38,280 nucleotides of DNA from Gemmatimonadota bacterium. Its GTDB lineage: Bacteria; JBHIER01; G020348925. Under the pieces are notes generated by a model. That model was not told where the DNA came from and ran no database searches. It worked only from the letters and a program-made list of their open reading frames with translations. The DNA lies in the NCBI GenBank assembly GCA_020348925.1, contig CP070758.1:2145408-2183687 (forward strand), written 5' to 3'. Shown piece by piece: positions 9,283-35,320 of this stretch (position 1 is the first letter of the stretch; each line of letters begins with the position of its first letter). The translations under genes and the position numbers were made by a program.

Positions 9283-9321
9283 CGTTCTCTCTTTCTTTTA
9301 ATGAACACCTGCATGTTCATT

Positions 9322-11232: not shown

Positions 11233-11242
11233 TGAATGTGTA

Positions 11243-13132: not shown

Positions 13133-13133
13133 A

Positions 13134-15542
13134 TTACGCACGAGTTCGAGGCCCACAGTTTCCGATTCCCAGAATAACGTTCACAACGCTTACGGCATCC
13201 ACAGCATCCACCTCCCCATCACTATTGCAGTCGGCACACCAAAAACGGCTGCCCGTTAAGCTTTCGATCTCCAAAATGTGTCTCACGATAGCGATGACAT
13301 CCAGAACGTTCATGCTTCTGTCACCGTTCACGTCGCCCTTATCCGAAAGTGGTGCCGTGGTGAATTCAAAGACATCCTCGTGCGTAAACGGTTTCAGGGT
13401 TGCCAGCACAAATTCATCACCAAGTTCAGGCGGTGTGTACGAAGGATTGCCGGCAAAAAAAATCATCCACGTCAGGAATGGCCCACTCTGATCCTTCTCT
13501 TCGAGGATGTAAACCTCATCACGCGGGCTCAGCTCTCCGCTGCCATCCGCCTCGTTGAATACTATATCCACCTGACGATCCTCCGTCCTGTTCCAGACCG
13601 TGAAGAACATCGGCACGGCCAGGGCTCCTAAGAATGTGCTCGAGGTATCAACGATACGATCGTATATCTTCAGAACATAATCAGCCGGATAGGGGTATCC
13701 TCGAATAATCTCTGTTCCAAAGTCCAATTCGGGTAGCGAGATGGTGTGGGTCATGTTCGTCTGCCCGATCTCCCAACCTGTGCCAGCTTGATCGACCACA
13801 GCCCGCGGATAATCGAAGATGACCAATCGCAATCCATCGAAGGCGGGTCCTTCCGTAACGCCATCCATCTCTACAGCATTGCGCACGACGAACGTGTCCG
13901 CATCCAGATCATAAACACTGTAAGTCTTCTGCTCGGAGAGTGCGTCCTCAAACGTAATCCGATAGACGTGCCCGGTCAATTGTGATGCATCGATGATATT
14001 GCCGCCGACCGCACCACTCCCATCTCCCCCGATGTGAAGGAAAATGGACTCAGGAAGCCCGCTCCGCTCATTGTGAACGGTGAACGTCTGTGATGTATCC
14101 GCGACCTCAACGGATCCATCTGTGCAGCGGAGCCTCAAGCGATAAAACGGCGAATTCGGCATTCCTCTCGTGTCCCAAAGGTAAGAGCTATCATTCTGTT
14201 CATCGGTTACAATTGCTCTCCACGTAACTCCGTCATCACTGCTCACGTCGAGTGAAATAAGTAACGGATCACCGTCGGCATCGGCAGCGCTCCATCTGAT
14301 CTCGTATTCATCGTGCAGCAACTCGCCGCCCCGTGGATCATTCAGTTCGATCTCCGGAGGAGCATTTCCCGGATTATTGACAGTGAAGGGACCACTCGAC
14401 TCCGTCATACCGAAGCGTTCCTCTCCGAGGACTACGATGCGAAGCTTGTATTGAGTTCCATCGGGCACCGAAAGTGTGTTCCACGGATACGAATTGTTTT
14501 GTCTCTGACCGCTCCACAACTCATTCCAGCTCGCGCCGGCGTCATCGCTGACAAAGAGTGTCACGAACAGAGAATCCCCTGCATCTTCGAAGGTCCACGA
14601 GATATCGATCTGACCGGACACCTCATCACCAGCTAAGGGTGAGCGCAGACGGACATCCAAGGAAAGCAGGGTCGTCTCAAAGGTGCTGTACACGCCGATG
14701 TGATCCGAGGGATAGATTCCCCCAGAGCTCGGTCTGTTCAAAACCAATCGAGAATCAACCGCTCTGCTTTTGTCGCCATCTCTCAAAAAGACGTAATCGA
14801 TTCGGGCGTTCGGTGATTCGGCCGGGACAGTATACCCGGACCCTCCGGGATTGCTCTCGGCCCAACTGTCCAGGTAACGGATACCCTCCGCGTCGACCTC
14901 CGTCATGTTCCGAACCGGAGGAGCATCAGGAACCGCGTTGAAGTCACCACAGACAATATTCGCCGCAGGAACACCGTCAGCACTTTTCTCCTCAACATAC
15001 TCTTTGATCTGCCGCACCTGGGCCACGCGAACCTCCTCGTCCTGGGCGAGATGCGAGAGATGGGCATCAAAGAAGTTGACGATCCCTGCCGGGGTCAAGA
15101 TCCTGCAATACAATGCTTTTCTCTGAAAGACACCTACTGGTAAATCTCGCACACCTTCTTCAAGAATGATGTGTCGGGTCATGATCCCGAGACCCTCATC
15201 GTATCGCCCCCACCCTGTATGGGTCCGCTCAAAGATATACTCGTATCTGATTCCGGTCCTTCGATAGACCGAATCGGCGATCACCTTGGCGCTGTTGTCA
15301 CCACCTCCGGTCCCCGGTGTCTGAAGAACCTCCTGAAGGCCGATGAGATCCGGTTGAAGCTCCTCCAGCTCTTCAACAATCATACTCAATCGTGTCCCCC
15401 ACTCGATCTCCCAGCCGTGAAGGTTGAAGGTGAGAACAGTGAGTGAATCTCCGAGACTGCTCTGCACCTGTTGACCTTTACAGGGAATAATCCGGGCGAT
15501 GAGGAGAATACAGAGTATACCCCACAACAGTTTACTTTTCAT
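13134..15542 (-). CDS. Exported endonuclease/exonuclease/phosphatase-family protein with dockerin-like C terminus
   Basis: The 802-residue protein has a signal peptide (hydrophobic residues 4-18). Residues 34-290 are an EEP (DNase I-like) domain with all key motifs: TFNLHG (38-43), GLQE (Glu71), the His161-x-x-His164 region, GDFN (199-202) and PSDH (278-281). The family hydrolyses phosphoester bonds with a divalent metal. Two tandem Ig/Fn3-like domains follow (about 295-390 and 393-490), then a beta-rich unassigned region (500-730), then a dockerin-like pair of calcium loops (about 735-798, DVNGDRSMNVLD and ADCNSDGEVDAVD). GAGG lies about 10 bases before the ATG. Why an EEP enzyme sits among amylases is unclear; extracellular nuclease or removal of phosphate from glucan are possibilities, both unproven. 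Confidence 0.87.
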   Translation of the reverse strand: MKSKLLWGILCILLIARIIPCKGQQVQSSLGDSLTVLTFNLHGWEIEWGTRLSMIVEELEELQPDLIGLQEVLQTPGTGGGDNSAKVIADSVYRRTGIRYEYIFERTHTGWGRYDEGLGIMTRHIILEEGVRDLPVGVFQRKALYCRILTPAGIVNFFDAHLSHLAQDEEVRVAQVRQIKEYVEEKSADGVPAANIVCGDFNAVPDAPPVRNMTEVDAEGIRYLDSWAESNPGGSGYTVPAESPNARIDYVFLRDGDKSRAVDSRLVLNRPSSGGIYPSDHIGVYSTFETTLLSLDVRLRSPLAGDEVSGQIDISWTFEDAGDSLFVTLFVSDDAGASWNELWSGQRQNNSYPWNTLSVPDGTQYKLRIVVLGEERFGMTESSGPFTVNNPGNAPPEIELNDPRGGELLHDEYEIRWSAADADGDPLLISLDVSSDDGVTWRAIVTDEQNDSSYLWDTRGMPNSPFYRLRLRCTDGSVEVADTSQTFTVHNERSGLPESIFLHIGGDGSGAVGGNIIDASQLTGHVYRITFEDALSEQKTYSVYDLDADTFVVRNAVEMDGVTEGPAFDGLRLVIFDYPRAVVDQAGTGWEIGQTNMTHTISLPELDFGTEIIRGYPYPADYVLKIYDRIVDTSSTFLGALAVPMFFTVWNRTEDRQVDIVFNEADGSGELSPRDEVYILEEKDQSGPFLTWMIFFAGNPSYTPPELGDEFVLATLKPFTHEDVFEFTTAPLSDKGDVNGDRSMNVLDVIAIVRHILEIESLTGSRFWCADCNSDGEVDAVDAVSVVNVILGIGNCGPRTRA

Positions 15543-15583
15543 GAGCTCAATTCCTCGGGTATCACCATACAACCAGCACCTTT

Positions 15584-18214
15584 TCACGGACACTCCGGAA
15601 TAATACCCAGAACAACATTGACGATAGAAACGACGTCCGTAACATCCACCCGACCATTACCGTCACAGTCAGCCCGCCAAAGGGCGCTCCCCCCCAACAC
15701 CTGTATACCTAAAATATGCCTGATGACCGCAATCACGTCCAAAACATCGAGGTGCCCATCACCGTTCACGTCACCCTTGTCACCGACGAATGAGAGGTCC
15801 TGACCGTACAACACCAACGCATCCTGCGTCTCCGGCACGTTCTGTATCATTATCAGGACCACATCCTCATCCGAATGATACCACCAGCCTTCCCCCCCAC
15901 CCCAGAATTGACCGGCCGAGTCATACTCGGAGATCCTCCCTCCATTTTTCAGAAGGGAATCGGGCGGGGTCGGGACACGGTTGACGCGGCAGATGTACAC
16001 CCGGCCGGGACGTCTTCCGGAGAAGCCTCCCTGGGCCGGTCCAATATCGATCGTTATCTTTCCTGGGTGCACCTGACACGTATATTGTGTCGTATCCCAA
16101 TCGCCGGACTCGTAACCGCAGCTCTTTCCATCGTCCTCGTAGACTATGGCGGAGGAAAATCCGGAGGGATAGATATCCAGGGTCAACGTGTCCAGGGGTA
16201 TCTGATCCGAATAGTCCATTTCAGGGCCCATGGGGATGATGGCCCCTGCTTTGATAAAAAGCGGCATGACATCCAAAGGTGACGGAACAGTGTGGTATCC
16301 CTGCGTATATATGTCCTTGGTCCAGTAATCGATCCATTCGCCCCGGGGAAGATAGACCGTTTTTGAGGTTGCACCCTCCTCGGTAACAGGAGCGACCAGA
16401 ATATCGTCACCCCAGAGATATTCCCATCCGAGATTGACGACCTCGGGATCGTCGGGATATTCCAGCACGAGAGGCCGGGCCAAAGGTAAGCCCACGGACA
16501 TATTTCTGTAGGCCATTGTGTAAATATATGGCAGCAATCTGTACCTCAGTTTGATGTACTTCTTACAAATAGCTTCAACCTCAGGACCATAACCCCAGGG
16601 TTCCGTCGTATGGCCGACACCGTGGGGCCGGGTAATAGGACAGAAGGTGCCGAACTGCATCCAGCGTGCATACAGTTCACCGCTCGGTGTTCCCCAAAAT
16701 CCGCTTATGTCGGAATGTTGATACCCGACACCCGACAGACTCATGCCCAGCATGATGGGAATCTGGTTCCTCAAACCTTTGAAGGTACAGGAGACATCCC
16801 CGGACCAGGGCGCCGTACCGTAGCGCTGCATCCCGGCATATCCCGACCGTGTCACAATGAACACACGCTCATCCGGACGATAGGCGCGATACCCGTCGTA
16901 CAGCGTCTTACTCCACAGTAGATTCAGAATATTATGGGCCTTGGCTGCGGAGCCAAGGTGGTGAACCATATCCTCCGGATGGGTCTCCGGCTCTCCCAGA
17001 TCGGTCCACCACCCGGCAACACCTTGATCCAAGAACGGCTCGTGCTTCGACCACCACCACTGACGGGCTTCCGGGTTGGTAAAATCGATAAGCCCGGCGG
17101 GGCCGGCCCACATATTGACGATATAAGTGGCTCCGGAAGGGTCCATGCCGAAATAACCGTTCGACGAACCCTCACTGAAATTGGGCGTCCAGTCCCTGAC
17201 ATACGGCTCCTCGATGAGGATGGTCTTAATCCCCACATCCTGAAACTCCCCCAACATCCTTGTTGGATCGGGCCAGTTACTCAAATTCCAGGCAAAACGG
17301 CCCATATCTCCGGGATACCCGAACCAGTAGAGATCCAGGATGATGGCATCGATGGGGATATCTTTCTCCCACATGGTCGAGATCATAGCCTTGGCCTGAT
17401 TTTCGTTCTCATACCCGTACTTTGACTGGAGATATCCCAAGGCCCAGCGGGGCGGCAGCGGTGCTCGGCCCGTCAGCCACGTGTATCTTTCAAGTATCCT
17501 TTTCATATCAGGACCGTAAATCATGTAGTAGGTCATTTGGCCTCCGTCTGCCCGATAAAACCAGTAATCAGAACTCTCCTCCCCGAAGTCAAAATTGCCG
17601 GTATAGGTATTATCGAAATAGAGGCCGTATCCGGAATTCGTGCAGACAAAGGGAATATTTATGCCCATGGTTGGATGCTCATCATCTCCGGAGCCATGCC
17701 GGTTATAGGTGTCAAAGCTCCAGCCCTTTCGATCCAGGTCGATGGCTCGCATACCGAGGCCGTAAAAATGATCGTCTTGGGTTTGTGAGAAATAGACATA
17801 CTGATTTGGCCTCTCCCACCCCAGACCTCCTTCAGGACGCTCTTGCAGAAGTAATTGACCCGACCTATCGGAGAAAGAGAGGCGGAACGGATATTTCTGA
17901 CAATGGATGTCAAATGTCTGGGATAGGATATGAAGACTACTATCCTCGTCCTCAACTGTAAAACTCACGCCAGGCCAGGATGAGTGCATCACAACGAATG
18001 AGCTGTCTTCCAGTGGATTCCAGATAAAAGAGAGCATCACCTTTACGATATCTTCAGTGCAGAACTCGAGGGACACAAAAGCCGGCAAACATTCGAAGAC
18101 AATCTTGTTGCCATCAACTTCGTGAGATCCGTAATCTCCCACAAACTCGACAGCCTCGAGCCTCATGTTTAAGGCAACAACAAAAAACGCTGTAAATATT
18201 ATTTTCGCTCGCAT
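15584..18214 (-). CDS. Exported GH31 alpha-glucosidase-family enzyme with dockerin-like C terminus
   Basis: The 876-residue protein has a signal peptide (residues 1-21). Residues 25-235 form the GH31 N-terminal beta domain, and 250-600 the catalytic barrel with WTDLGEPE at 403-410 (Asp405 the nucleophile) and WSGD at 470-473 (Asp473 the acid/base). A beta-sandwich C-terminal region runs to about residue 800. Residues 812-876 are a dockerin-like pair (DVNGDGHLDVLD and ADCDGNGRVDVTD). GH31 members act on alpha-glucosides, alpha-xylosides or transfer glucosyl units; the surrounding genes favour an alpha-1,4/1,6-glucan product. GGAG lies 8 bases before the ATG, which is 12 bases after the upstream stop. 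It is the third of four consecutive dockerin genes. Confidence 0.93.
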   Translation of the reverse strand: MRAKIIFTAFFVVALNMRLEAVEFVGDYGSHEVDGNKIVFECLPAFVSLEFCTEDIVKVMLSFIWNPLEDSSFVVMHSSWPGVSFTVEDEDSSLHILSQTFDIHCQKYPFRLSFSDRSGQLLLQERPEGGLGWERPNQYVYFSQTQDDHFYGLGMRAIDLDRKGWSFDTYNRHGSGDDEHPTMGINIPFVCTNSGYGLYFDNTYTGNFDFGEESSDYWFYRADGGQMTYYMIYGPDMKRILERYTWLTGRAPLPPRWALGYLQSKYGYENENQAKAMISTMWEKDIPIDAIILDLYWFGYPGDMGRFAWNLSNWPDPTRMLGEFQDVGIKTILIEEPYVRDWTPNFSEGSSNGYFGMDPSGATYIVNMWAGPAGLIDFTNPEARQWWWSKHEPFLDQGVAGWWTDLGEPETHPEDMVHHLGSAAKAHNILNLLWSKTLYDGYRAYRPDERVFIVTRSGYAGMQRYGTAPWSGDVSCTFKGLRNQIPIMLGMSLSGVGYQHSDISGFWGTPSGELYARWMQFGTFCPITRPHGVGHTTEPWGYGPEVEAICKKYIKLRYRLLPYIYTMAYRNMSVGLPLARPLVLEYPDDPEVVNLGWEYLWGDDILVAPVTEEGATSKTVYLPRGEWIDYWTKDIYTQGYHTVPSPLDVMPLFIKAGAIIPMGPEMDYSDQIPLDTLTLDIYPSGFSSAIVYEDDGKSCGYESGDWDTTQYTCQVHPGKITIDIGPAQGGFSGRRPGRVYICRVNRVPTPPDSLLKNGGRISEYDSAGQFWGGGEGWWYHSDEDVVLIMIQNVPETQDALVLYGQDLSFVGDKGDVNGDGHLDVLDVIAVIRHILGIQVLGGSALWRADCDGNGRVDVTDVVSIVNVVLGIIPECP

Positions 18215-18226
18215 TTTTACTCTCCA

Positions 18227-20287
18227 CTACGGCCAACAAGAACCACGACCCGTTATCACACTCACAACGAGAAGAATATCTCCTACATCAATAGTACTAT
18301 TGGCATCACAATCCCCACGCCAGAGAGTGCATGCGTCGGGCTCAATGATCCCAAGCGAAAGCCTGACCGCTGTGACAATATCGAGCACATTGATCACTCC
18401 ATCATTCGTGACATCGCCCTTCTGACCACATTCGTTGGCAATACCTCCCTCTCTGTAGACGGCCAATCCACCACCGGCAGTCCCTATCCACATGTTCCCC
18501 AGAGAATCCTCAGTCAGTGCCCAGATCCAGTTACTCGGCAACCCTGAATTACCCGTCATGAACACCTGCCACTCGGAATCGTCGAACCGCACAAGCCCCC
18601 TGCTGGTCCCGAACCACTTGTCCCCGTGAGAATCTATCGTCATGACCCAGACATGATTGTCAGGCAGGATCGAGTTCATCGTATCGTAGACCGTCCAGCC
18701 ATCACCATCAAACCGCGCCACTCCGCCATACGTACCAATCCACCGGTTTCCGAGGCTGTCGATGGCGATGTCATTGATCCTGTTATCCGGAAGACCCGAA
18801 TTGTCGGCCTGATAGACCGTCCAATGGAGACCATCAATGACAGCCAGCCCATTGAACGTTCCGATCCAAAGATCACCGATCTCATCAAAGGCCAGTGCGA
18901 GAACATCATTATCAGGCAGGTCGGAGTTTTGAGTGTTGAAAACAGTCCAACTCGTCCAGTCAAATCTGGCCAGTCCTCCACCAATGGTTCCCACCCACAG
19001 GGCACCGGACCAGTCAACGACCAGCTCGTAGATTGCGCTCCTCGGCAGACCGGAGTTCTGGGCCGTAAACGAATACCACTGTCCGCCATCGTAGAGACCG
19101 AGCCCACCCGGTGTCCCGAACCACTTGCTCCCTGAAATGTCGAAGGCGGACACCCACACCAGGTTGTCGAGGGAAACGGTTTTCTTGAGGTCGTAGGCGG
19201 TCCATGTGAATCCATCGTATTCCGTCAGGCCGTTTTCGGTCCCAATCCATCCGTGCCCATGTTCATCGAAAGATACTGTAAAAACGTCCTCATGCGGTAA
19301 GCCCGAATTCGCCGCGCTATACTCCCTCCACCTTTCACCGTCAAACCGCACAAGTCCCTCGTCCGTGCCAACCCATAGCATCCCGTCGTCATCCTCATCT
19401 ATTGCCCTCACTTCGTTACTTTGCAATCCGGAGGTGGCGGTGTTATAGACAGTCCATTGCCGTCCGTCGAATCGAGCGAGCCCACCACCCAGCGTCCCCA
19501 TCCATTTGTCACCCCGACTGTCAACAAAAACAGTCCAAATCCAGTTATGAGGCAAGCCGGAGTTGGAGGTGCTGTATACCGTCCACGAAGCACCGTCAAA
19601 TCGGGCCAAACCGTCTCCCGTCCCAACCCAGATATGTTCCTCTTCATCGAAGGCTATCGAATAGACATAATCGTTCGGTAAACCGGAATTCAGAGTATTG
19701 TAGCTCCTCCAGGCAGATCCATCGAAATGCGCCAATCCTCCCTGAGTACCGATCCACACCTCAAAGGAGTCTCTGACGGCCAAGGACCTTATTTCATTAT
19801 TTGGTAAGCCTGAATTCGAGGTTGTATACTGGATCCAGTCTTCCCCATCGAATTGGATCAAGCCGTCCTGCGTCCCGATCCACACAGTATTATAAAAGTC
19901 AATGGCCAGAGCTCTCACTCTGTTGTCCGGTAAACCGGAGTTCGATGTGCTGAACGTTGACCAATGCGCACCATCAAATCTGGCCAATCCCCCGGACGTT
20001 CCAATCCAGACACTCCCTCTCGAATCGACGGCGACGGTCCTCACCCCATTTTCCGGAAGACCGGCATTTGCCCGGTTGTAATGAACGACCTCATCGGTTG
20101 ATGTGCCGAGCTGTGTCAATCCGCAGCCACCAACCCAGAGATATCCGTTCACCGCAACGAGAGCATTGACATTCGGTGCTGTGTAATTGATCCATTCCGG
20201 GTCGTGCGCCACAACCGAAGGTACCCAGATGAAAACGAACACTCCATACAATAGAAATTTACAATCCAGTTGTATTGAGGATTTCAT
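18227..20287 (-). CDS. Exported Reg_prop double beta-propeller protein with dockerin-like C terminus
   Basis: The 686-residue protein has a signal peptide (hydrophobic residues 11-25, cleavage near VVA). Residues 31-611 hold one degenerate and thirteen clear repeats of about 42 residues with the core GLPxNxVxxLAxDxxGxxWIGT and GLxRFDGxxW. These are two-component-regulator propeller (Reg_prop) blades; fourteen blades fit two seven-bladed propellers. In Bacteroidota such propellers form the sensor half of hybrid two-component systems, but no Y_Y_Y domain, membrane segment or kinase follows here. Instead residues 622-686 are a dockerin-like pair (DVTNDGVINVLD and GDCDANSTIDVGD). Its start lies 29 bases inside the preceding GH13 gene, so the two are translationally coupled. 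A glycan-binding or scaffold role is an inference. Confidence 0.9.
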   Translation of the reverse strand: MKSSIQLDCKFLLYGVFVFIWVPSVVAHDPEWINYTAPNVNALVAVNGYLWVGGCGLTQLGTSTDEVVHYNRANAGLPENGVRTVAVDSRGSVWIGTSGGLARFDGAHWSTFSTSNSGLPDNRVRALAIDFYNTVWIGTQDGLIQFDGEDWIQYTTSNSGLPNNEIRSLAVRDSFEVWIGTQGGLAHFDGSAWRSYNTLNSGLPNDYVYSIAFDEEEHIWVGTGDGLARFDGASWTVYSTSNSGLPHNWIWTVFVDSRGDKWMGTLGGGLARFDGRQWTVYNTATSGLQSNEVRAIDEDDDGMLWVGTDEGLVRFDGERWREYSAANSGLPHEDVFTVSFDEHGHGWIGTENGLTEYDGFTWTAYDLKKTVSLDNLVWVSAFDISGSKWFGTPGGLGLYDGGQWYSFTAQNSGLPRSAIYELVVDWSGALWVGTIGGGLARFDWTSWTVFNTQNSDLPDNDVLALAFDEIGDLWIGTFNGLAVIDGLHWTVYQADNSGLPDNRINDIAIDSLGNRWIGTYGGVARFDGDGWTVYDTMNSILPDNHVWVMTIDSHGDKWFGTSRGLVRFDDSEWQVFMTGNSGLPSNWIWALTEDSLGNMWIGTAGGGLAVYREGGIANECGQKGDVTNDGVINVLDIVTAVRLSLGIIEPDACTLWRGDCDANSTIDVGDILLVVSVITGRGSCWP
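18455..20062 (-). repeat. Thirteen tandem propeller-blade repeats (about 126 bases each)
   Basis: The coding sequence repeats about every 126 bases, with recurring minus-strand segments encoding SGLP, WIGT and RFDG. Units are 40 to 44 codons and diverged at DNA level, so this is an old protein repeat and not a fresh tandem duplication. One more degenerate unit precedes them (residues 31-75). The seventh and eighth units are atypical, with KKTVSLDN in place of the usual NSGLP link. Confidence 0.85.
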
Positions 20288-23200
20288 TCACCATCCCTAC
20301 GATGTCCAAAACGTTCACGGCCCCGTCGTCGTTGAAATCGGCGGCCCACAATTCATATTCTGTCGGGAGAGGGGGAAGTATCAGAATAATATTGACTGCC
20401 ATGACAACATCCACAACATCTATGGATCCGTCTCCATTCACGTCCCCTTTCAGTCCGAGATCAGTGTTGAGTGAGTCCCCTAAAACGAGAATCTGCGCCT
20501 GATACGGCTCAAGTTGGAAGTGGATCGTGTCAAGATTGGCCCCTCTGTACGGATACTGATGGTCGGCCAACACATCAGTCAGATAATACTGTTTCCCCGG
20601 ATCGACACTCCAATCCTCAAGGGGCAGGATCACATCGGCCGTCCGTACCTCATCGGCAAAATTGAGATTGACGACAACGGTCTCATCCCCTTCACGCCGG
20701 AAGAAGGAGTAGACGAAATTGCTGTTCCCGTTACTGAGCCGATCGATGGTCTGGTTGCGCATGGATGGGTACGTTTTCCGAACGAAGATGAGCTTCTGAT
20801 AGTAGGGTCGCAGCTCGTTGGGATCGCTCCAGTTAATGAGACCGCGCTGGCTGCTTTCCCCCACTTCCTGCCCGGCGTAGATGAGGGGTATCCCGGGGAT
20901 CGTCAGATTGAGAGCAGTCAGTATCTTCGCCTGGGGGACAGTATACTCGGACATGAGGCGCTGCTCATCGTGGTTCTCCAGAAAACGCAGGGGGTATGCA
21001 TTGTCCGGGAACCCGTACACGATCCCGTTGAACTCGTTGATGATCTTCTCATGCAGCCATCCCACGTCTCCACCGGAAAGAATGTTCCCGAATCCGTCCC
21101 AGAAGAGGGGCCAGTCGTAGGCCGAATCGAAACGCCGGTCGAAGAGTGTAAAATCAGTGGCACCGGCTTCGGCCAGGCACAGGATATCCGGCCTGGTCGT
21201 CTTCAACGCCTGCCGCCATTCAAGCCAGTAATCGGGATACCGGTCCTGGATGCCCCAGGCCACGTCGCACCTGAAGCCGTCAATCCCGAGGGAATCCGTG
21301 TAAAATTTGGCCATGTTGATGAAGTAATCCCGGGCATCCTCATCGCTCTGATTCAAATTGGGCAGGCTTGTCCAGTCATAGTAATAGGTGTAGAGACCGT
21401 TGGGGCTCAGCGTCCCTCCCAGCTCCTCCCTTCGCTCGTAGAAATCGTAATAAAAGGAATGCTGGCGGAACCTGGCCATATCCTGGAAGAAGGCATGATC
21501 GATGGAGGAATGGTTGACCACGTGATCGATGATGACGCGCAGGCCCAGGTCATGCGCCGTTTCGATAAATGCCACAAAATCATCCATGGTGCCGTAATCG
21601 GCCTCGATGGCCAGGTAATCATTGACCGCATAGCCGTGATCCGACGGTCCCTCGTTGATGGGCATGAGCCAGATGGCCGTTGCGCCCAAATCGGCGACAT
21701 CCCCAAGCCGTGCCGTCGCCCCGGCGAAATCCCTGCTGGAGCTGAAGGACCGGATGTAGATCTCGTAGAGTATGGCATCCTTGACCCACTGGGGGCTGTC
21801 GTTCATGCTGCCCCCCCAGGCACTGTCGGACGTCACGGAAACAAAGGTCCGCCCGTAAGACTCCTCACTGTCAATATCACTGGCGATGAGATCGAAATAG
21901 TATTCCCCCTCAACCTCGGGCTTGGGGAAAGAGGGCGTGGCCGACGTCGGATCGTCCAACACCACCAGCGACGGATTGTCCGAATCGACCAGCCACTGGT
22001 GAAACACTTTGGGACCGTTGGGATCATTACTCAGACTGGCATCAAGGCTGATCGTACTGTTGCTGAATATGGCCGGCGAAAATACGATGTTCGGCCGGGT
22101 ATAAAATTTTCTGAAGAAGATTAGATTCGCGGAGTAAATGGAATCGCCATCGCTGACGACCAGGGCGCGGAAAACGTTCTCCCCTGTTGTCAGAAAAGCC
22201 GCGTAGGCGAATTCATTCTCTATCACAGGAACGATAACGGGTGCTTCGTTGTGAAAAAGCGTTACCTCCACCACCGAACCACCCTCGACACTGCCGACGA
22301 TCTCGACGTTTTTCTTCAGCGTGGTTCCCCCTCTGGTCAGAAAGGACACGACGATATCCGATGCCTTCAGACTGCTGTCGATATCGCTGGGGCTGATGCC
22401 GACATATCCGCGTCCCTCATAATCAAGGGCCGCCTGGCGACTGCTGGTGAAGTTGTTGAACAAGCGAGTCTGGAGCTCGGGTGAATCACAGAACATGGCG
22501 TCAAATACATCCGCCTCACCCTCCTCAGCCACGCCACCCATATTCTCATCAACCTCCGTGACCATCCCCCCTGTTCCCGTCACATACGAATAGATGCAAC
22601 AGTACCACTTGTCCGTGAACGTCCCCAGCAGACCCGTCAAATCCGACAAAGAAAGCGAGAAGGCAAAGGTATCGGACGCAACCGCACCCGGGGGCATAGA
22701 AACCCGAAGATCCCCGATGAGTGGGTCTCTGGTCGTGTAGAGTATATTATGCATCTCCCCATCGCAGTGGGGAGACTCAGGAGATACAATGGGAACATAG
22801 ATACCGACACCGGTCCACTCAAGGTGACTCAATTCCGTACTGATAATATCCCCGACCAGGCCGGCATCGATGGAATTGGTCAGAATAAAGGAAAGGGCCG
22901 TATATTCCGTAATATCTGCCAGACCGATCCGAAAGTGCAATGAATCTTCAGCCCCCGTCAGCCTGATGTGCATACTGAGAAGATCAGCCGAACCATCCGG
23001 GACGCCTTCGGGATAGGTGTAGGTCCCGGTACCGGCATCGTCACCGTAGCTGTCAAGATAATGATATCCGGACTCCGACGGATAGACGCCGAAGACACTC
23101 GTTTTCCGGGGCGCGGCCCGACCCTCATTATCCGAAACGTCAAAGGTGAGAAGATGATCCCCCGGGGAGAGATCCGAAACGGAACCGGACAGCACTGACC

Positions 23201-24113
23201 AGAAAGGATCGTACGAGAAACCGAGGGGTTCGCTGTCCAAGGTGAGGGACAGGGTCGATTCGTCAATTCCGTCATCGTAATCCCCATCGATGACGGCCGC
23301 TGCAATTTCCGTCCCCGTAATATCAACCAGGATAGCCCCATCCTCGGGCACCGTGACCACGAAGGACGGCAGTGTATCGGCCACAACGATGATGATCGAA
23401 TTGTTGTACTCCGACGGATTCGTCTTCGGGTTGTCGGGATCCGAGAACCACTCCTCGTGATTGATCACGAACTTGTACTCGTAGTAGCCCTCCTCCAGAA
23501 TTTTCGTCATCGTATAGACGCCACTCTCATCTGGACCGTTCATGGTGTCGGAGTACCGGCTCCAGCTGTTGAAGGTCCCCGCCAGATTGGCCGTATTGAT
23601 CAACGACGGGCTGTAGCCGAACTGGGCGCTGCGGGTGTCCAACACGAATTCAACGTCAGCTGCCAACTGCTCCGGTTGCTCGACAAGCTGGATGTCCCAG
23701 TTGGCGTTATTGTTGTTATCCCACTGGGTACCGTTCGTGACGACGTAGTGCAGGGTTTGGGTTTCACTCTCCGTCTGGATCGAAATTCGCCACAAGCCGG
23801 GATTTGTCTTCGTCATAGGTGACTGGACGGCCAAATTGTCACTGTGCGGAACCGTCCCCTCTGGCCACATACTCTCCGGGGCTTTCTGCCAGGCCCCATG
23901 GGCCGTCTCATTGATACCCCAGTGGAGCTTCACACCGGTACCATCGTCAGGCAACGTGCCGGGAATATCGTTGTAATAGATCGTGAGCAGATCACCGGGA
24001 TTCGGGCTTTCGGGCTCCCACCAACTAACCTGTCCCCGGCCGCCCGATGCACTCACGAGAAGAACAACAAGAACGAATACACCCCGTCGTGTTGTTTTCA
24101 AGAATTTTTCCAT
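20259..24113 (-). CDS. Large multimodular exported GH13 alpha-amylase-family enzyme with dockerin-like C terminus
   Basis: The 1284-residue protein has a signal peptide (residues 8-27). Modules in order: a starch-binding-like beta domain (about 28-150, CBM25/53-like, LHWGIN and YVVTNGTQWD); a CBM48-like domain (155-245, LAGTFNSW and YYEYKFVI); an Ig-like linker (250-345); a DOMON-like module resembling the glucodextranase C-terminal binding module (350-540, GDDAGTGTYTYPEG); a further Ig/PKD-like stretch (590-765); and the GH13 barrel (780-1130). Catalytic regions are intact: DHVVNH at 863-868, GFRCD with Asp950, Glu982, and NHD at 1047-1049. Residues 1225-1284 are a dockerin-like pair lacking the cysteines seen in its neighbours. 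AAAGGTG precedes the ATG at 24113; the longer frame from 24188 adds no signal feature. Confidence 0.93.
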   Translation of the reverse strand: MEKFLKTTRRGVFVLVVLLVSASGGRGQVSWWEPESPNPGDLLTIYYNDIPGTLPDDGTGVKLHWGINETAHGAWQKAPESMWPEGTVPHSDNLAVQSPMTKTNPGLWRISIQTESETQTLHYVVTNGTQWDNNNNANWDIQLVEQPEQLAADVEFVLDTRSAQFGYSPSLINTANLAGTFNSWSRYSDTMNGPDESGVYTMTKILEEGYYEYKFVINHEEWFSDPDNPKTNPSEYNNSIIIVVADTLPSFVVTVPEDGAILVDITGTEIAAAVIDGDYDDGIDESTLSLTLDSEPLGFSYDPFWSVLSGSVSDLSPGDHLLTFDVSDNEGRAAPRKTSVFGVYPSESGYHYLDSYGDDAGTGTYTYPEGVPDGSADLLSMHIRLTGAEDSLHFRIGLADITEYTALSFILTNSIDAGLVGDIISTELSHLEWTGVGIYVPIVSPESPHCDGEMHNILYTTRDPLIGDLRVSMPPGAVASDTFAFSLSLSDLTGLLGTFTDKWYCCIYSYVTGTGGMVTEVDENMGGVAEEGEADVFDAMFCDSPELQTRLFNNFTSSRQAALDYEGRGYVGISPSDIDSSLKASDIVVSFLTRGGTTLKKNVEIVGSVEGGSVVEVTLFHNEAPVIVPVIENEFAYAAFLTTGENVFRALVVSDGDSIYSANLIFFRKFYTRPNIVFSPAIFSNSTISLDASLSNDPNGPKVFHQWLVDSDNPSLVVLDDPTSATPSFPKPEVEGEYYFDLIASDIDSEESYGRTFVSVTSDSAWGGSMNDSPQWVKDAILYEIYIRSFSSSRDFAGATARLGDVADLGATAIWLMPINEGPSDHGYAVNDYLAIEADYGTMDDFVAFIETAHDLGLRVIIDHVVNHSSIDHAFFQDMARFRQHSFYYDFYERREELGGTLSPNGLYTYYYDWTSLPNLNQSDEDARDYFINMAKFYTDSLGIDGFRCDVAWGIQDRYPDYWLEWRQALKTTRPDILCLAEAGATDFTLFDRRFDSAYDWPLFWDGFGNILSGGDVGWLHEKIINEFNGIVYGFPDNAYPLRFLENHDEQRLMSEYTVPQAKILTALNLTIPGIPLIYAGQEVGESSQRGLINWSDPNELRPYYQKLIFVRKTYPSMRNQTIDRLSNGNSNFVYSFFRREGDETVVVNLNFADEVRTADVILPLEDWSVDPGKQYYLTDVLADHQYPYRGANLDTIHFQLEPYQAQILVLGDSLNTDLGLKGDVNGDGSIDVVDVVMAVNIILILPPLPTEYELWAADFNDDGAVNVLDIVGMVNEILNTTGL

Positions 24114-24205
24114 TTGACACACCTTTCTTCTGAGAGTGAAAAACTTTCGCACTCCTTGTCTTGAAATCATGAATAATCGTCTCCTCATTCACCCTCGGTC
24201 CGACT

Positions 24206-25633
24206 TCATTCTGAGAGAAAAACCATTGACTCATAAGGTTTCAAAGCTATTTGATGGGTCGGCTTTGATAAGAGCTGAACGGGCTTCTCTTTGCCTCGGA
24301 TGAATTTCTCGCCGTCCCGCCCACTTCTCAATTCTTCGGGGAACTGAAGTGTCGCAGTCATCTCCCTGTCGGAAAAATTGAGAGCAACGACAGCCGTGCG
24401 GTCACCTGTCATTCGAGCGTAGGCCACAATTTCGGAGGGACGATCCGTAGGGATCTTCATCGTCTCTCCATGGACGAATACTGTATGGTCCTTTCGCAAA
24501 CGAATCAGTTGTTTATAAAAACGTCTGACTGCGTAATCGGCATCTCCCCAATGGACTTCAACCTTATCGAAGAGCGCCGGCTTGACCGTATCGGCCACTT
24601 CCTGGCCGGCGTACAGCATGGGCAGACCCCTGAGGGTGAAAACGAACGTCGCATACGGCTCGAATCCCGGAACGCCAAACACTTTTGCCGCCCGTTGCTC
24701 GTCATGATTCTCAAGAAACCGCAGCCTGAGTGCGCCTTTGGGGAATTCCCTCTCCTTTTTCAGGACAAGATCGATCGCCTCCTCGGCTTTCGCCTCTCCC
24801 CTACGAATCTCTTTCAAAGTATGATAAAGGCTCCAATCGTACGTCGCATCGAACTGATTGATGTGCATTTTGGGATCTTCCCACTCAGCCAGCAGAAAGA
24901 AGGTGGGCTTCATTTTACGCAATTGCGCCCGCACATCCACCCAGAAATCCCCCGGAACCATGCCGGCGACGTCGCAGCGATACCCATCAATATTGAAATC
25001 TCTGATCCAGTACTGGAGAGCGTTATGCATATAGCTACGCATCTCGCGGTTATGGTAATCGAAATCAGTTACATCCCACCAGTCATCGACTTCACGGGTA
25101 AAATTTCCCTTTCTGTCCCGGACAAACCAGTCCGGATGTCTGCCCATCTCAATATGATCATTGGCCGAGTGATTGGCCACCCAGTCCAGGATGACTTTCA
25201 TTCCCAACTCGTGGGCCGTAATCACGAGTTGCCGCAGGTCGGTCCCCCGTCCAAACTCGGGATTGATGGCCCGATAGTCTCTGACTGCGTAGGGACTGCC
25301 CAAGGTTCCTTTTCGCCCGACTGTGCCGATCGGATAGATAGGCATCAACCAGACGGTTTCAACACCCAACTCCTTGAGTTCCGGCAATCTCTCCGTCACC
25401 TTCTGGAACGTGCCCTCCGGACTGAACGCTCGGACGAACACTTCGTATACGATGGTTCCGGGAACCCATGAGGGACTCGTGACGCTGTGAAACGTGCCGA
25501 AGTCTTGAGGCTCTTCTTGCTCCGGAGCCCGTTGACAACCCCAGGGGAATATCAAGAGCGTGCTGGCGAAAAGAACCAGCAGCGTCACGGCGATAGAGAT
25601 ACGAAACCTTTTCATAAGAACGCTCACTTTCAT
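24206..25633 (-). CDS. GH13 alpha-amylase-family lipoprotein
   Basis: The 475-residue protein has a lipoprotein signal (hydrophobic residues 11-30, then FPWGC with Cys33), so it is probably anchored to a membrane. The rest is a compact GH13 enzyme with intact regions: DWVANH at 150-155, GYRCD with nucleophile Asp221, AEWE with acid/base Glu250, and FLENHD ending at Asp311. A C-terminal beta domain completes it; there is no binding module. An alpha-amylase or neopullulanase-like action on alpha-1,4 links is expected. Its ATG overlaps the stop of the GH57 gene by four bases (ATGA), implying coupled translation; an in-frame ATG at 25615 is an alternative and leaves the signal intact. Confidence 0.92.
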   Translation of the reverse strand: MKVSVLMKRFRISIAVTLLVLFASTLLIFPWGCQRAPEQEEPQDFGTFHSVTSPSWVPGTIVYEVFVRAFSPEGTFQKVTERLPELKELGVETVWLMPIYPIGTVGRKGTLGSPYAVRDYRAINPEFGRGTDLRQLVITAHELGMKVILDWVANHSANDHIEMGRHPDWFVRDRKGNFTREVDDWWDVTDFDYHNREMRSYMHNALQYWIRDFNIDGYRCDVAGMVPGDFWVDVRAQLRKMKPTFFLLAEWEDPKMHINQFDATYDWSLYHTLKEIRRGEAKAEEAIDLVLKKEREFPKGALRLRFLENHDEQRAAKVFGVPGFEPYATFVFTLRGLPMLYAGQEVADTVKPALFDKVEVHWGDADYAVRRFYKQLIRLRKDHTVFVHGETMKIPTDRPSEIVAYARMTGDRTAVVALNFSDREMTATLQFPEELRSGRDGEKFIRGKEKPVQLLSKPTHQIALKPYESMVFLSE

Positions 25634-27621
25634 TTTGAAATGATTGGATCGAACCGGGGAATTTCCATTTGAGCACCCGCTAAATTGGCATATCTGTAAA
25701 CATTGGTCAGGTGAAGTCTGAAGTTTTCGTCGAACAGCAGATCGCCTCCGCCTCCGGCTGTTTCATCTGCTCCATACCACCAGAACCAATCGGATCCCTC
25801 CGCAGCGTACATCTCCTCCCAGGCCTGATACGTGTACCACGCTTTCGAGTACCTCTCCCCAGGTTCGTCAACCTCAGGGTCCGGCGGTGTCAGTCCGCTC
25901 TTCTCCAGATCCCTCCTCGTTCTCAACAGGAGCTCCCAGCCTGCATTTTCCTCGTCTTCACCGATCCAGTTGGAAAAGTGCGGCAGAAACCAGGAGGCCG
26001 GATACAGGGGATCGATTCTGGTGGCCTGTGCAACAGGATGAGGCTTCACCCCCCTCTCGGGATTGCCGTCAATAAATTCGGAAGGCGTTACGCTTATGAT
26101 CCGACCCTCCTCATATCTTTTTTCCAACTCCGCATACAGTTTATGAAAAAACTTCGAACCGTCGTTATCCTTCTCAAAATACTCCCAGGCATTTTCACCG
26201 TCCAAGAGAATTGTCAACAACCGGTCGCCCTCTCCGGGCGCAGGCAAATACTCCTCCACGGCTTGAAAGAAGTGTCCCACATTCTCCTCGGCCGTCCGTC
26301 TCGAGTAATCGAATGCGATCTGGTCCGATATTCCTAAATCACGAAAGACAATGGCCAGTTTCTCACCACTCTGGCCATCAACGGAATACATTCTGGCCAG
26401 TTCTTCTTTCGTGAGATCCTCAGGTCCATCCTTGCCCAAGGATTTTGCTAAAACGTGTGGTCCGGTGGCGATCCAACGGACACCACTGTTGAGAAAAAGA
26501 GGAACGACCTCCTCTGCCACAGAACCCTCGGCCGGCCACATACCGTTGGGAGGTTCCCCGAATATCCGTTCAAACATCGTGACACCTTTACGGACTTGAT
26601 TCTCGGCATCAAAAGGATAGGAATAGCGCTCGGGAAGCGGGTCCTGGGGTTGGCATTTCAATGCAATATCACTATCATAGATCAGTGGAAGGATAGGATG
26701 ATAGAAGGGCGTCGTGATGAGCTCGATTTGTCCCAGCCTGGTCTCCGGATGATACATCAATTTCTTGTGAATCGGGATCACATTGGCCATCACTTTGTAC
26801 GCTTCGGCCACGAGTCGCTGGCAATCCTCCTCGGTCACATCCCGTTTCAAGATGAAACTGTCATCGGAATCGTCCTCCGGGGAACCGGCGGCATCGTACA
26901 GAACCAGATCGGAAAGGTCAACAACCATCGGAGAACCATCGGGATTCTGCAGCGGGAGTGTCACAGGGCCTTTCAAAAAGGATGGATCGAACAGGGCCAG
27001 GAAGAAAAAAGTCTTGATCCGGATTTTCTGCTGCAGCGTGTACGATTCCCAGGGTTTTCTCCCTTGAAAAGACCCCACATTTCTTCCTATAGGAAGGAGC
27101 GTGTTGTACTGGGGAAAACGTCGAATAATCTGCTCGGTGAGGGAGAAACACGACCAAGCCTGGTCTCCGCTTTTATTGAATAAATAATCCAAATCCCGGC
27201 TATTGAAATTGCGCGTATCCATCAGCATGAGGTCAATCCAGGGATCGGTCTTGCCTCGCCATTCCGACAGAAAACCTTCGGCATCAATCCGATTTGCTCC
27301 CGTATCAACATACGGACCGAGCCGATCCACATAATACTCCTGCAACTGCCGCAGGAGCACTGAGGTGAGATCTATGGTCAGATGCACTTTCGGATACTTC
27401 TCCAGAACGGCGGCCATGTCATAATAATCCTTAGTGGAATGCGTTCTCACCCACGGACCGATGAGCTGATCCTTTGTGGCATCGAGATACGATGGCTGGT
27501 GCTGATGCCAGATGATATTCAGGTACAACTTTCCGGGTTCCTTGGGCCCACAGGATACGATTAGAAGAAGCAACAGAAGACCAATCCCCAAAAATCGAGA
27601 TCGTTTTTTATATTTTTTCAT
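25630..27621 (-). CDS. GH57 amylopullulanase-like lipoprotein
   Basis: The 663-residue protein has a lipoprotein signal (residues 9-23 hydrophobic, LIVSC with Cys24). GH57 regions are clear: HQHQP at 39-43, GQIELITTPFYHP at 298-309, MWPAEGSV with candidate nucleophile Glu365, and LLDGENAWE with candidate acid/base Asp474. A C-terminal segment WFLPHFSNWIGEDEENAGW near residues 555-575 matches the fifth region of amylopullulanase-type GH57 enzymes. Such enzymes cleave alpha-1,4 and often alpha-1,6 links. GAGGAG lies 6 bases before the ATG at 27621. It would act at the cell surface or in the periplasm, next to the transport genes upstream. Confidence 0.91.
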   Translation of the reverse strand: MKKYKKRSRFLGIGLLLLLLIVSCGPKEPGKLYLNIIWHQHQPSYLDATKDQLIGPWVRTHSTKDYYDMAAVLEKYPKVHLTIDLTSVLLRQLQEYYVDRLGPYVDTGANRIDAEGFLSEWRGKTDPWIDLMLMDTRNFNSRDLDYLFNKSGDQAWSCFSLTEQIIRRFPQYNTLLPIGRNVGSFQGRKPWESYTLQQKIRIKTFFFLALFDPSFLKGPVTLPLQNPDGSPMVVDLSDLVLYDAAGSPEDDSDDSFILKRDVTEEDCQRLVAEAYKVMANVIPIHKKLMYHPETRLGQIELITTPFYHPILPLIYDSDIALKCQPQDPLPERYSYPFDAENQVRKGVTMFERIFGEPPNGMWPAEGSVAEEVVPLFLNSGVRWIATGPHVLAKSLGKDGPEDLTKEELARMYSVDGQSGEKLAIVFRDLGISDQIAFDYSRRTAEENVGHFFQAVEEYLPAPGEGDRLLTILLDGENAWEYFEKDNDGSKFFHKLYAELEKRYEEGRIISVTPSEFIDGNPERGVKPHPVAQATRIDPLYPASWFLPHFSNWIGEDEENAGWELLLRTRRDLEKSGLTPPDPEVDEPGERYSKAWYTYQAWEEMYAAEGSDWFWWYGADETAGGGGDLLFDENFRLHLTNVYRYANLAGAQMEIPRFDPIISK

Positions 27622-27664
27622 GGTGTTCTCCTCGAGCACCCTTCGTCACAGAGAGAAAGTTTTC

Positions 27665-27738: not shown

Positions 27739-28581
27739 CTATCCCTTCACACTTCCCAGTGTCAGTCCTGAGACGAGCCACCGACTCAGAAACAGAAAAA
27801 GAGCGACAACAGGGATGCTGACAACAACAGCCCCGGCCGAGTACAATCCCCAGGAGACCTCCATATTCGACTGAAACATCTTGAGGCCGAGAGGGAGCGT
27901 AAAGAGGTTCTGGTCCTGAATGAGAACGGCGGCCACCAAATACTCCGACCAGGCCGTCATGAATGAAAACAGAGCCGTAATCACAAGCGCCGGTGCGGCC
28001 AAGGGGAGGACAATGCGCCAGAATATGCCGATTTGCGAACACCCGTCGATGGCTGCCGCCTCCTCGAGACTGTAGGGAATCGTATCGTAATACCCTTTCA
28101 TCTGCCACACAATGAAGGGCAAGGCCGTGGCAGAATAGGCGATGATGAGGGCAAAGTACGAATCATACGCCTTGAGTTTGATCAGCACAATAAACAAGGG
28201 CAGCAGAAGCATGGTCAGTGGAAACATCTGTGTCGTAATGAGACCGATCATGGCCGTATCACGCCCTCTGAACTTGTATCGGGAAAAACCGTATCCGGCC
28301 GTTGCGGCCAGGGCCACACCAAACAATGTGACGGCCGCGGAGACGATGATGCTATTTCCCAGCCATCTCAGAAAGGGCTCTTCCAGAAAGAGACGGACGT
28401 AGGTGTTCAACGTGGCATCCGGAGGAATAACGGCCAGTGATTTATCCAGAAGTCGATCCCCCGGCCGAAGGGAAATAGCCCGTACCCGCAAGATCGGATA
28501 CGCGGCGAAGAGGGTGAATATCGTTACAATTACATAGCTGGCGATTCGCGCCGGTGATGAAAGTGTTCTCGGTCCTCTCAT
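27739..28581 (-). CDS. ABC sugar transporter permease, MalG type
   Basis: The 280-residue membrane protein has about six transmembrane helices and the cytoplasmic EAA loop motif (EEAAAIDGCSQIGIFWRI, about residues 182-199) that contacts the ATPase. It matches the MalG-like permeases of carbohydrate-uptake type 1 ABC transporters. GAGGAG lies 5 bases before the ATG at 28581; a longer frame from 28665 would overlap the upstream permease gene. It follows the MalF-type gene by 16 bases and the two should form the membrane channel with a separate MalK-type ATPase, which is not in the window. Confidence 0.93.
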   Translation of the reverse strand: MRGPRTLSSPARIASYVIVTIFTLFAAYPILRVRAISLRPGDRLLDKSLAVIPPDATLNTYVRLFLEEPFLRWLGNSIIVSAAVTLFGVALAATAGYGFSRYKFRGRDTAMIGLITTQMFPLTMLLLPLFIVLIKLKAYDSYFALIIAYSATALPFIVWQMKGYYDTIPYSLEEAAAIDGCSQIGIFWRIVLPLAAPALVITALFSFMTAWSEYLVAAVLIQDQNLFTLPLGLKMFQSNMEVSWGLYSAGAVVVSIPVVALFLFLSRWLVSGLTLGSVKG

Positions 28582-28597
28582 GTGTCTCCTCGACAGA

Positions 28598-29527
28598 TCA
28601 ATACACAGCCTGTGTCGCCTGCGTCCTTTTGATGAAGTTCCAGCTGAAAACGAGCAAGATGGCAAAAATAATCATGGAAAAGGCCGCCGCATACCCGGTC
28701 CGGAAATAGGTGAAGCCGACCTTGTACACCCAGGAAACGAGAATATGCGTCTTATCGGATGGCTCACCTCCGTTGCTGACGAGCCAGACCACATTGAAAT
28801 TGTTGAATGTCCAGATGATTCCCAGTGTGATAGCCGGAATCATGACAGGTTTCAGTAAGGGAATGGTGATGTTTTTCAGCTTCTGATACCACGAAGCGCC
28901 GTCGATGTCCGCAGCCTCATAGAGCTCGTCCGGAATGCTCTGCAGTCCCCCCAGGGCAATAATCATCATAAAGGGAAATCCCAGCCAGATGTTCGTGATC
29001 AGGCAGGCGGTGAAGGCCCCCCACTCAGTGGTCAGCCATGGTACCTGGAGTCCGAGAAATCTATCCAGGATGATGCTGATGGCCCCGTATTCGGAGTTGA
29101 ACATGCCCCGCCACGTCAGGGCCGTGATATACTGCGGTACGGCCCACGGGAGTATGAGCAGGGTCCGGAAGAAAGTCTTGCCCTTGAGGTCTTTGTTCAA
29201 GATGATGGCCAAAAAGACACCGATGGTGACATGAAAAAAGACGTTGATGACGGTCCACAGAATCGTCTTCACGAAGAAATACCAGAAATCGGGAACTTCG
29301 ATGCCGAGTAATTTCAAATTCATCGTAGTATCGGTCAAAACGGTCCAGAAGTTGCCCGGCCCAATGAGGCGCCAATCACGGAAGTGGGTCAAGTTCATGT
29401 TCGAAAGGGAAAGTATGATATTGTAGATGAAAGGATATACGATCACCAGGGCCATAATCATAAGAGCGGGCATGGTGTACACGTACGCCAATCGATTATC
29501 TCTTCTTTCTCCGATTCCTACTGCCAT
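28598..29527 (-). CDS. ABC sugar transporter permease, MalF type
   Basis: The 309-residue membrane protein has about six transmembrane helices and an EAA loop (ELYEAADIDGASWYQKLKNI, about residues 199-218). It matches MalF/UgpA-type permeases but has no large periplasmic P2 domain like that of Escherichia coli MalF. AAGGAAAGGAA precedes the ATG. It lies between the solute-binding protein and the MalG-type gene, the usual order for a carbohydrate-uptake type 1 transporter. The likely substrate is maltodextrin, from context. Confidence 0.93.
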   Translation of the reverse strand: MAVGIGERRDNRLAYVYTMPALMIMALVIVYPFIYNIILSLSNMNLTHFRDWRLIGPGNFWTVLTDTTMNLKLLGIEVPDFWYFFVKTILWTVINVFFHVTIGVFLAIILNKDLKGKTFFRTLLILPWAVPQYITALTWRGMFNSEYGAISIILDRFLGLQVPWLTTEWGAFTACLITNIWLGFPFMMIIALGGLQSIPDELYEAADIDGASWYQKLKNITIPLLKPVMIPAITLGIIWTFNNFNVVWLVSNGGEPSDKTHILVSWVYKVGFTYFRTGYAAAFSMIIFAILLVFSWNFIKRTQATQAVY

Positions 29528-29544
29528 TTCCTTTCCTTAGAGGA

Positions 29545-29572
29545 TATTTCGAATTCCTGAAGATTTCGGAAG
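29545..29572 (-). repeat. Spacer stem-loop similar to that at 30906-30930
   Basis: On the minus strand TTCCGAAATCT is followed by TTCGAAA, giving an imperfect inverted repeat. The same TTCCGAAATCT word begins the perfect stem-loop before the solute-binding gene, in the same orientation. It could be a processing or mRNA-stability element setting expression between the binding protein and the permeases, but this is inference. Confidence 0.4.
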
Positions 29573-29583
29573 TCCCGTTATTC

Positions 29584-35276: not shown

Positions 35277-35320
35277 ATTAATGCTCCCACCCTGCCAGCC
35301 TCTCGCCAAGGCTTCTGCAT

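Follow-up and report, generated by a model that had tools for sequence, protein, structure and literature searches.

Dockerin-tagged proteins of an alpha-glucan locus as probable clients of a genome-wide cohesin-dockerin system in a bacterium bearing type IX secretion

The window analysed here, a stretch of 38,280 nucleotides from contig CP070758.1 of a Gemmatimonadota bacterium, contains an alpha-glucan locus in which four adjacent genes encode secreted proteins that each end in a dockerin module. These four proteins probably belong to the clients of a surface-docking system that spans the genome, relies on cohesin-dockerin pairing and is built on the type IX secretion system (T9SS). The interpretation is based on the observation, in the same genome, of dockerins, cohesins, scaffoldin and adaptor architectures, T9SS sorting tails, a T9SS pore gene and the replacement of tails by dockerins. 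All inference is genomic and concerns this single genome, assembled as one contig of 5.04 Mb. The dockerin-bearing open reading frames (ORFs) of the window and their modules are the following:

20259..24188, minus strand: secreted GH13 protein (Ig_N_CWD1-like, CBM48-like, PKD and GH13 modules) with C-terminal dockerin; Pfam Alpha-amylase 1.6e-46, Dockerin_1 4.1e-9
20280..20450, minus strand: dockerin of the GH13 protein, IA subclass; Pfam 36.9 bits
18227..20287, minus strand: secreted double beta-propeller (Reg_prop) protein with C-terminal dockerin; Pfam Reg_prop 4.2e-48
18245..18427, minus strand: dockerin of the propeller protein, divergent, HR-like; genome-specific profile 54 bits
15584..18214, minus strand: secreted GH31 protein with C-terminal dockerin; Pfam GH31 1.2e-97, Dockerin_1 4.8e-9
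15617..15778, minus strand: dockerin of the GH31 protein, HR subclass, the copy used for modelling; Pfam 36.7 bits and model
13134..15593, minus strand: secreted endonuclease/exonuclease/phosphatase-fold (EEP) protein with C-terminal dockerin; Pfam Exo_endo_phos 8.6e-18, Dockerin_1 8.8e-10
13173..13340, minus strand: dockerin of the EEP protein, HR subclass; Pfam 39.1 bits
35608..38040, minus strand: fifth protein, secreted, starch-binding-like (CBM20-like), with internal dockerin and C-terminal T9SS sorting domain; Pfam Por_Secre_tail 4.2e-10, Dockerin_1 1.1e-5; CBM_20 6.3e-5, slightly below the Pfam cut-off
36010..36198, minus strand: dockerin of the fifth protein, IA subclass; Pfam 25.9 bits and genome-specific profile
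35620..35847, minus strand: T9SS sorting domain of the fifth protein; Pfam

The initial annotation, made from the sequence alone, had assigned C-terminal dockerin-like domains to the four neighbours and an internal one to the fifth protein, and both assignments hold. Three of the four neighbours and the fifth protein exceed the Pfam cut-off for Dockerin_1 (PF00404, 22.9 bits), and the propeller dockerin, sub-threshold in Pfam at 18.1 bits, is clearly recovered with a profile made from the genome's own dockerins, such local profiles having been trained on Pfam matches of the same genome. In the four neighbours the dockerin constitutes the extreme C-terminus, with 3-9 residues beyond it, and in the fifth protein it is followed by a 55-residue spacer and then by the T9SS sorting domain. 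The module contains two F-hand calcium loops (Pfam, alignment and model), and the Asp/Asn positions of both loops are kept across 187 dockerins, with Asp at loop position 1 in 157 of 160 first loops and Asp at position 12 in all of those. The model of the GH31 dockerin, with a predicted local distance difference test score (pLDDT) of 93.4, returned exclusively dockerins as its best PDB matches. The genes of the set (13134-24188, minus strand) overlap or almost abut in the ORF list, and position 24113, an internal ATG (MEKF...) directly before the signal peptide of the GH13 ORF, is plausibly the true start of that gene. Elsewhere in the genome, a few proteins present a dockerin at the N-terminal end of the ORF (L151, 555455-556594; L111, 1257817-1259616; L194, 3681601-3683370).

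A search of the whole genome identified 81 cohesin matches, of which 73, in 50 ORFs, exceed the Pfam cut-off. The cohesin profile matched solved PDB cohesins (best match 3.7e-15), and a modelled cohesin (pLDDT 97.1) returned only cohesins as top PDB matches, with template modelling (TM) scores of up to ~0.88. The initial observation that no cohesin is visible was correct for the window and does not extend to the genome; similarly, of the two options offered for the dockerin partner, a location elsewhere in the genome is borne out and an unknown class is not, classical cohesins being abundant. The genome also encodes at least 187 dockerins, as detected with the genome-specific profile, and at least about 150 T9SS sorting-domain matches. 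Both counts are lower bounds from a census that covers ~1 Mb in stretches around matches, in which Pfam scoring took in 150 of 525 dockerin candidates and 150 of 245 sorting-domain candidates.

Judged by architecture, some of the cohesin proteins appear to be true scaffoldins. Two or more Pfam-passing cohesins are found in 15 ORFs, and the biggest cohesin proteins exceed 3,000 residues. The ORF at 4337235-4341008 (minus strand) combines six cohesins with a T9SS tail and is adjoined by two genes encoding adaptors with three cohesins and a dockerin each, and the ORF at 2629164-2634290 (plus strand) has a T9SS tail in addition to its four cohesins. T9SS tails also occur on giant cohesin proteins (2830-3697 residues) encoded at 2320577-2331667 (L121), 2311364-2320549 (L120) and 2100769-2109258 (L117), two of which are adjacent. 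Among 145 widely spread genomes, cohesins were detected in 27, the next richest having 26 first-look candidates versus 116-141 here. In another phylum, that of genome G045, the trait is common at a smaller scale, with cohesins in 59 of 81 genomes and at most 33 candidates in each. Multi-cohesin ORFs of ~2,200-2,300 residues recur in many genomes of that phylum (G151:C179, G150:C25, G187:C656 and others), where they apparently encode a conserved scaffoldin.

The T9SS pore gene SprA is present (E 1.1e-44), and the initial description of an alpha-glucan operon in a bacterium of the Fibrobacterota-Chlorobiota-Bacteroidota (FCB) type agrees with this T9SS-bearing genome. T9SS tails are distributed unevenly, being found in 40 of 50 cohesin ORFs versus 45 of 152 cohesin-free ORFs with a dockerin (Fisher p 5e-10); the other 107 of these 152 have neither cohesin nor tail. 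In 95 of 101 clean dockerin-only proteins the chain ends within 30 residues of the dockerin. Frameshifts as the cause of lost tails were considered and rejected, with a frameshifted tail detected downstream of 0 of 96 dockerin-only proteins; six apparently dockerin-only cases in which the tail is lost in a run of N, such as 2665180, were set aside.

Comparison with homologues and paralogues points to the dockerin and the sorting tail as alternatives at the same place, and proteins bearing both represent a third state. Among 24 homologues of the window GH13 protein from two other phyla, 18 carry a T9SS tail, six neither tag and none a dockerin, and the eight longest matches all have the tail. 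For the GH31 protein, a contig end truncates the nearest homologue (54%); the complete homologues that come next, at 44%, 43% and 42%, present a tail, no tag and a tail, respectively, and those at 37% or below are untagged. Within the same genome, a paralogue of the propeller protein (78085-80487; 35% over 645 residues) lacks a dockerin and bears a T9SS tail; both modules occur together in a paralogue of the EEP protein (42%). Where the two modules coexist, a spacer of 51-56 residues lies between them in 45 of 46 proteins (for example at 35620-36198). This spacer contains a conserved motif of helical appearance (TPEV..F..SL..YLS.EDF.RFM.LVK), giving the impression that the dockerin, the spacer and the tail travel as one cassette.

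The clients of the dockerin system are diverse. The Pfam families on 95 dockerin-only proteins include peptidases (M28, M14, M20, M1, S41 and C25), propellers (LVIVD, FG-GAP and Reg_prop), LRR, TSP3, PKD and phosphoesterases, and adhesin-like proteins are also represented. No glycosidase family ranks among the 25 commonest Pfam families in either half of these 95 proteins, and the clients are not, as those of a cellulosome proper, mostly plant-cell-wall glycosidases. Starch proteins are a small share of the clients, the predicted starch-acting enzymes with a dockerin being the GH13 and GH31 proteins (by Pfam). The dockerins themselves form two subclasses, in which the residue at position 22 (His or Ile) varies together with those at positions 29 (Leu or Pro), 33 and 36 (Arg or Ala), comprising 82 His-type and 78 Ile-type members. 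Tail-less cohesin adaptors have Ile-type dockerins in all nine classifiable cases, dockerins preceding a T9SS tail in cohesin-free proteins are His-type in 34 of 42 classifiable cases, and dockerin-only proteins are a mix of the two. Of the window dockerins, those of the EEP and GH31 proteins are His-type and those of the GH13 and fifth proteins Ile-type, the propeller dockerin being placed in the His-type group by its Arg alone. A link between subclass and binding specificity is a guess; were it to hold, the four neighbours would not have a single cohesin partner in common. Dockerin genes no more than 6 kb apart share their subclass in 71% of cases, versus 50% with shuffled labels (0/2000).

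We propose a mechanism that covers binding, location at the surface, the substrate and the sequence in which export and docking would occur. In this scheme, dockerin-tagged enzymes would first be exported by Sec. In line with this step, signal peptides were recognized by a simple rule in 69 of 85 scorable dockerin-only ORFs versus 90 of 219 background ORFs, with two dockerin-only ORFs being lipoprotein-like. The C-terminal dockerins would then attach to the cohesins of scaffoldin and carrier proteins, the majority of which would be fixed on the outer surface through their T9SS sorting domain, the putative scaffoldin anchor. The dockerin would hence do indirectly what the T9SS tail does directly in relatives, namely put the enzyme on the cell surface. 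For the operon, the predicted outcome is a surface patch that binds and cuts alpha-glucan, with the resulting oligosaccharides passed to lipoprotein GH13 and GH57 enzymes and an ATP-binding cassette (ABC) importer encoded alongside.

The swap of tail for dockerin poses the question of how tail-less proteins cross the outer membrane to T9SS-anchored cohesins, and the tail- and dockerin-bearing homologues provide matched protein pairs for testing this crossing. A type II secretion system (T2SS) was considered as the export route; the genome holds no secretin above the curated cut-off, which is weak evidence against it. The sole T2SS-like secretin match (L250/L251, 4469627-4470763) falls below that cut-off and contains an in-frame TAG. 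Another possibility, which we regard as speculative and rather unlikely, is a "borrowed T9SS ticket", whereby folded dockerin-only proteins would bind tailed cohesin proteins in the periplasm and cross the SprA pore as a complex. If so, one sorting tail would export many enzymes, and this would explain why ~100 Sec-exported, tail-less proteins have a dockerin where their relatives bear a tail. Literature on T9SS export of dockerin proteins was searched for and none was found, although such work may still exist.

Several observations weigh against a surface-docking system that serves the four window proteins. The genome-wide search placed no cohesin gene within the window, and the nearest Pfam-passing cohesins lie at least 30 kb outside it, with one weak match at 18 kb. 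The four neighbours mix two dockerin subclasses and, for that reason, may not share a partner. In addition, docking would be needless for anchoring the 45 dockerin proteins that already bear a T9SS tail. Lastly, the cohesins that directly precede a T9SS tail group in separate clades and may act as structural stems, in which case the number of functional cohesins would be lower.

These clades are also what might be expected if the dockerin were a generic C-terminal domain, stabilised by calcium and not binding to cohesins, and if cohesin modules were structural beta-sandwich stems, many of them lying just before a T9SS tail. The very many dockerin copies on unrelated proteins and the constant spacing of dockerin and tail within one chain in 45 proteins suit this explanation as well. 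We nonetheless consider it improbable, given that neither repeated cohesins in proteins of few other functions nor cohesin-plus-dockerin adaptors beside a six-cohesin anchor have an obvious use without docking, that cohesin and dockerin numbers are both expanded, and that both folds match docking-competent pairs in the PDB. The initial annotation had reserved a generic domain for the case that dockerins numbered in the hundreds, on unrelated proteins, and cohesins were absent. The dockerins do number near 200 on unrelated proteins, yet they go with many cohesins, which argues for an assembly system, albeit a general one.

It is also quite doubtful that the dockerin-only proteins are periplasmic, docked to periplasmic cohesin proteins, with alpha-glucan cut after import across the outer membrane. 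Their Sec signal peptides, their lack of a T9SS tail and the T2SS secretin result would fit such a location, but most cohesin proteins bear a T9SS tail and should be outside, and large polymer-acting homologues in other phyla bear the tail too. The least credible alternative is the dedicated amylosome put forward initially, with the four neighbours assembling on a starch-specific scaffoldin of their own, for although adjacent genes of one alpha-glucan locus bear dockerins and the fifth protein unites its dockerin with a surface tail and a CBM20-like module, the locus lacks a cohesin gene, the same two subclasses that divide the four dockerins occur on more than 100 secreted proteins, most of them unrelated, dockerins with 65-67% identity to that of the GH13 protein are encoded at other sites of the genome, and the subclass analysis of the genome's dockerins did not find an amylosome-specific subtype. 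The term amylosome is too narrow because the clients are mostly non-starch proteins, the starch set being one small client.

Cellulosome logic is usually taught for Gram-positive cellulose degraders. A genome-wide surface-docking system as favoured here would apply it at record scale in a T9SS-bearing bacterium, serving a mixed secretome, and the genome provides a large new set of cohesin-dockerin pairs with two dockerin subclasses. The novel aspects are the scale, the presence of an adaptor tier, the division into two subclasses and the evidence of tail replacement.

The closest precedent, and a direct one, is the cellulosome-like system of the uncultured Candidatus Stygibacter (Cloacimonadota), an FCB-type bacterium in which dockerin enzymes likewise go with cohesin scaffoldins anchored at the surface. 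There, signal-peptide enzymes with C-terminal dockerins, including a starch-type GH57 and peptidases, accompany a large scaffoldin with multiple cohesins, whose conserved C-terminal domain is assigned to surface attachment with T9SS cited (PMC8542988). The combination of T9SS-tailed cohesin scaffoldins and Sec-exported dockerin enzymes is likewise predicted from the present sequence. That account comprises four dockerin enzyme types and one 3755-residue scaffoldin, against at least 187 dockerins and 50-77 cohesin ORFs here, where adaptor scaffoldins, two dockerin subclasses and direct evidence of dockerins replacing T9SS tails are further differences. The Ruminococcus bromii amylosome also consists of starch-acting proteins with dockerins (PMC9112005, PMC5814915), and the dockerin profile of this genome matches the solved R. 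bromii Amy10, Amy12 and Amy16 chains. R. bromii is, however, a starch specialist, whereas in the present T9SS-bearing host starch proteins make up little of a large, mixed set. In number, the dockerins come close to the largest known cellulosome, that of Pseudobacteroides cellulosolvens, described as the most intricate, with 78 cohesins, more than 200 dockerin ORFs, adaptor and anchoring scaffoldins and more than one dockerin type (PMC5590126); that system is clostridial and cellulolytic, while the present one is T9SS-anchored with mostly non-glycosidase clients. Large non-cellulosomal cohesin-dockerin repertoires in a different envelope are known from anaerobic methanotrophic (ANME) archaea (PMC9012536) and, as cited in PMC8542988, from the planctomycete "planctosome". 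Archaea with these domains were reported without large multi-cohesin scaffoldins (PMC9012536), which are present here.

The rest of the alpha-glucan locus encodes the following proteins, and its neighbours also include a symporter:

24206..25633, minus strand: GH13 enzyme without dockerin, lipoprotein-like N-terminus, adjoining the dockerin set; ORF, translation and Pfam
25630..27639, minus strand: GH57 enzyme without dockerin, lipoprotein-like N-terminus; ORF, translation and Pfam
27739..30903, minus strand: ABC sugar importer, whole; Pfam and translation
27739-28665, minus strand: importer permease 1; read from the translation
28598-29527, minus strand: importer permease 2; Pfam
29584-30903, minus strand: importer solute-binding protein; Pfam
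32904..35309, minus strand: amylo-alpha-1,6-glucosidase (GDE_C) protein without dockerin; Pfam GDE_C 6e-64

The predicted gene content of the locus is in keeping with alpha-glucan being cut at the surface and taken up. Positions 5705-13156 of the window, which lie downstream of the dockerin set, hold a glycogen-type set without dockerins, with genes for GH13, CBM48-bearing GH63/trehalase-like, glycogen-synthase-like and GH57 glucanotransferase-like proteins (Pfam).

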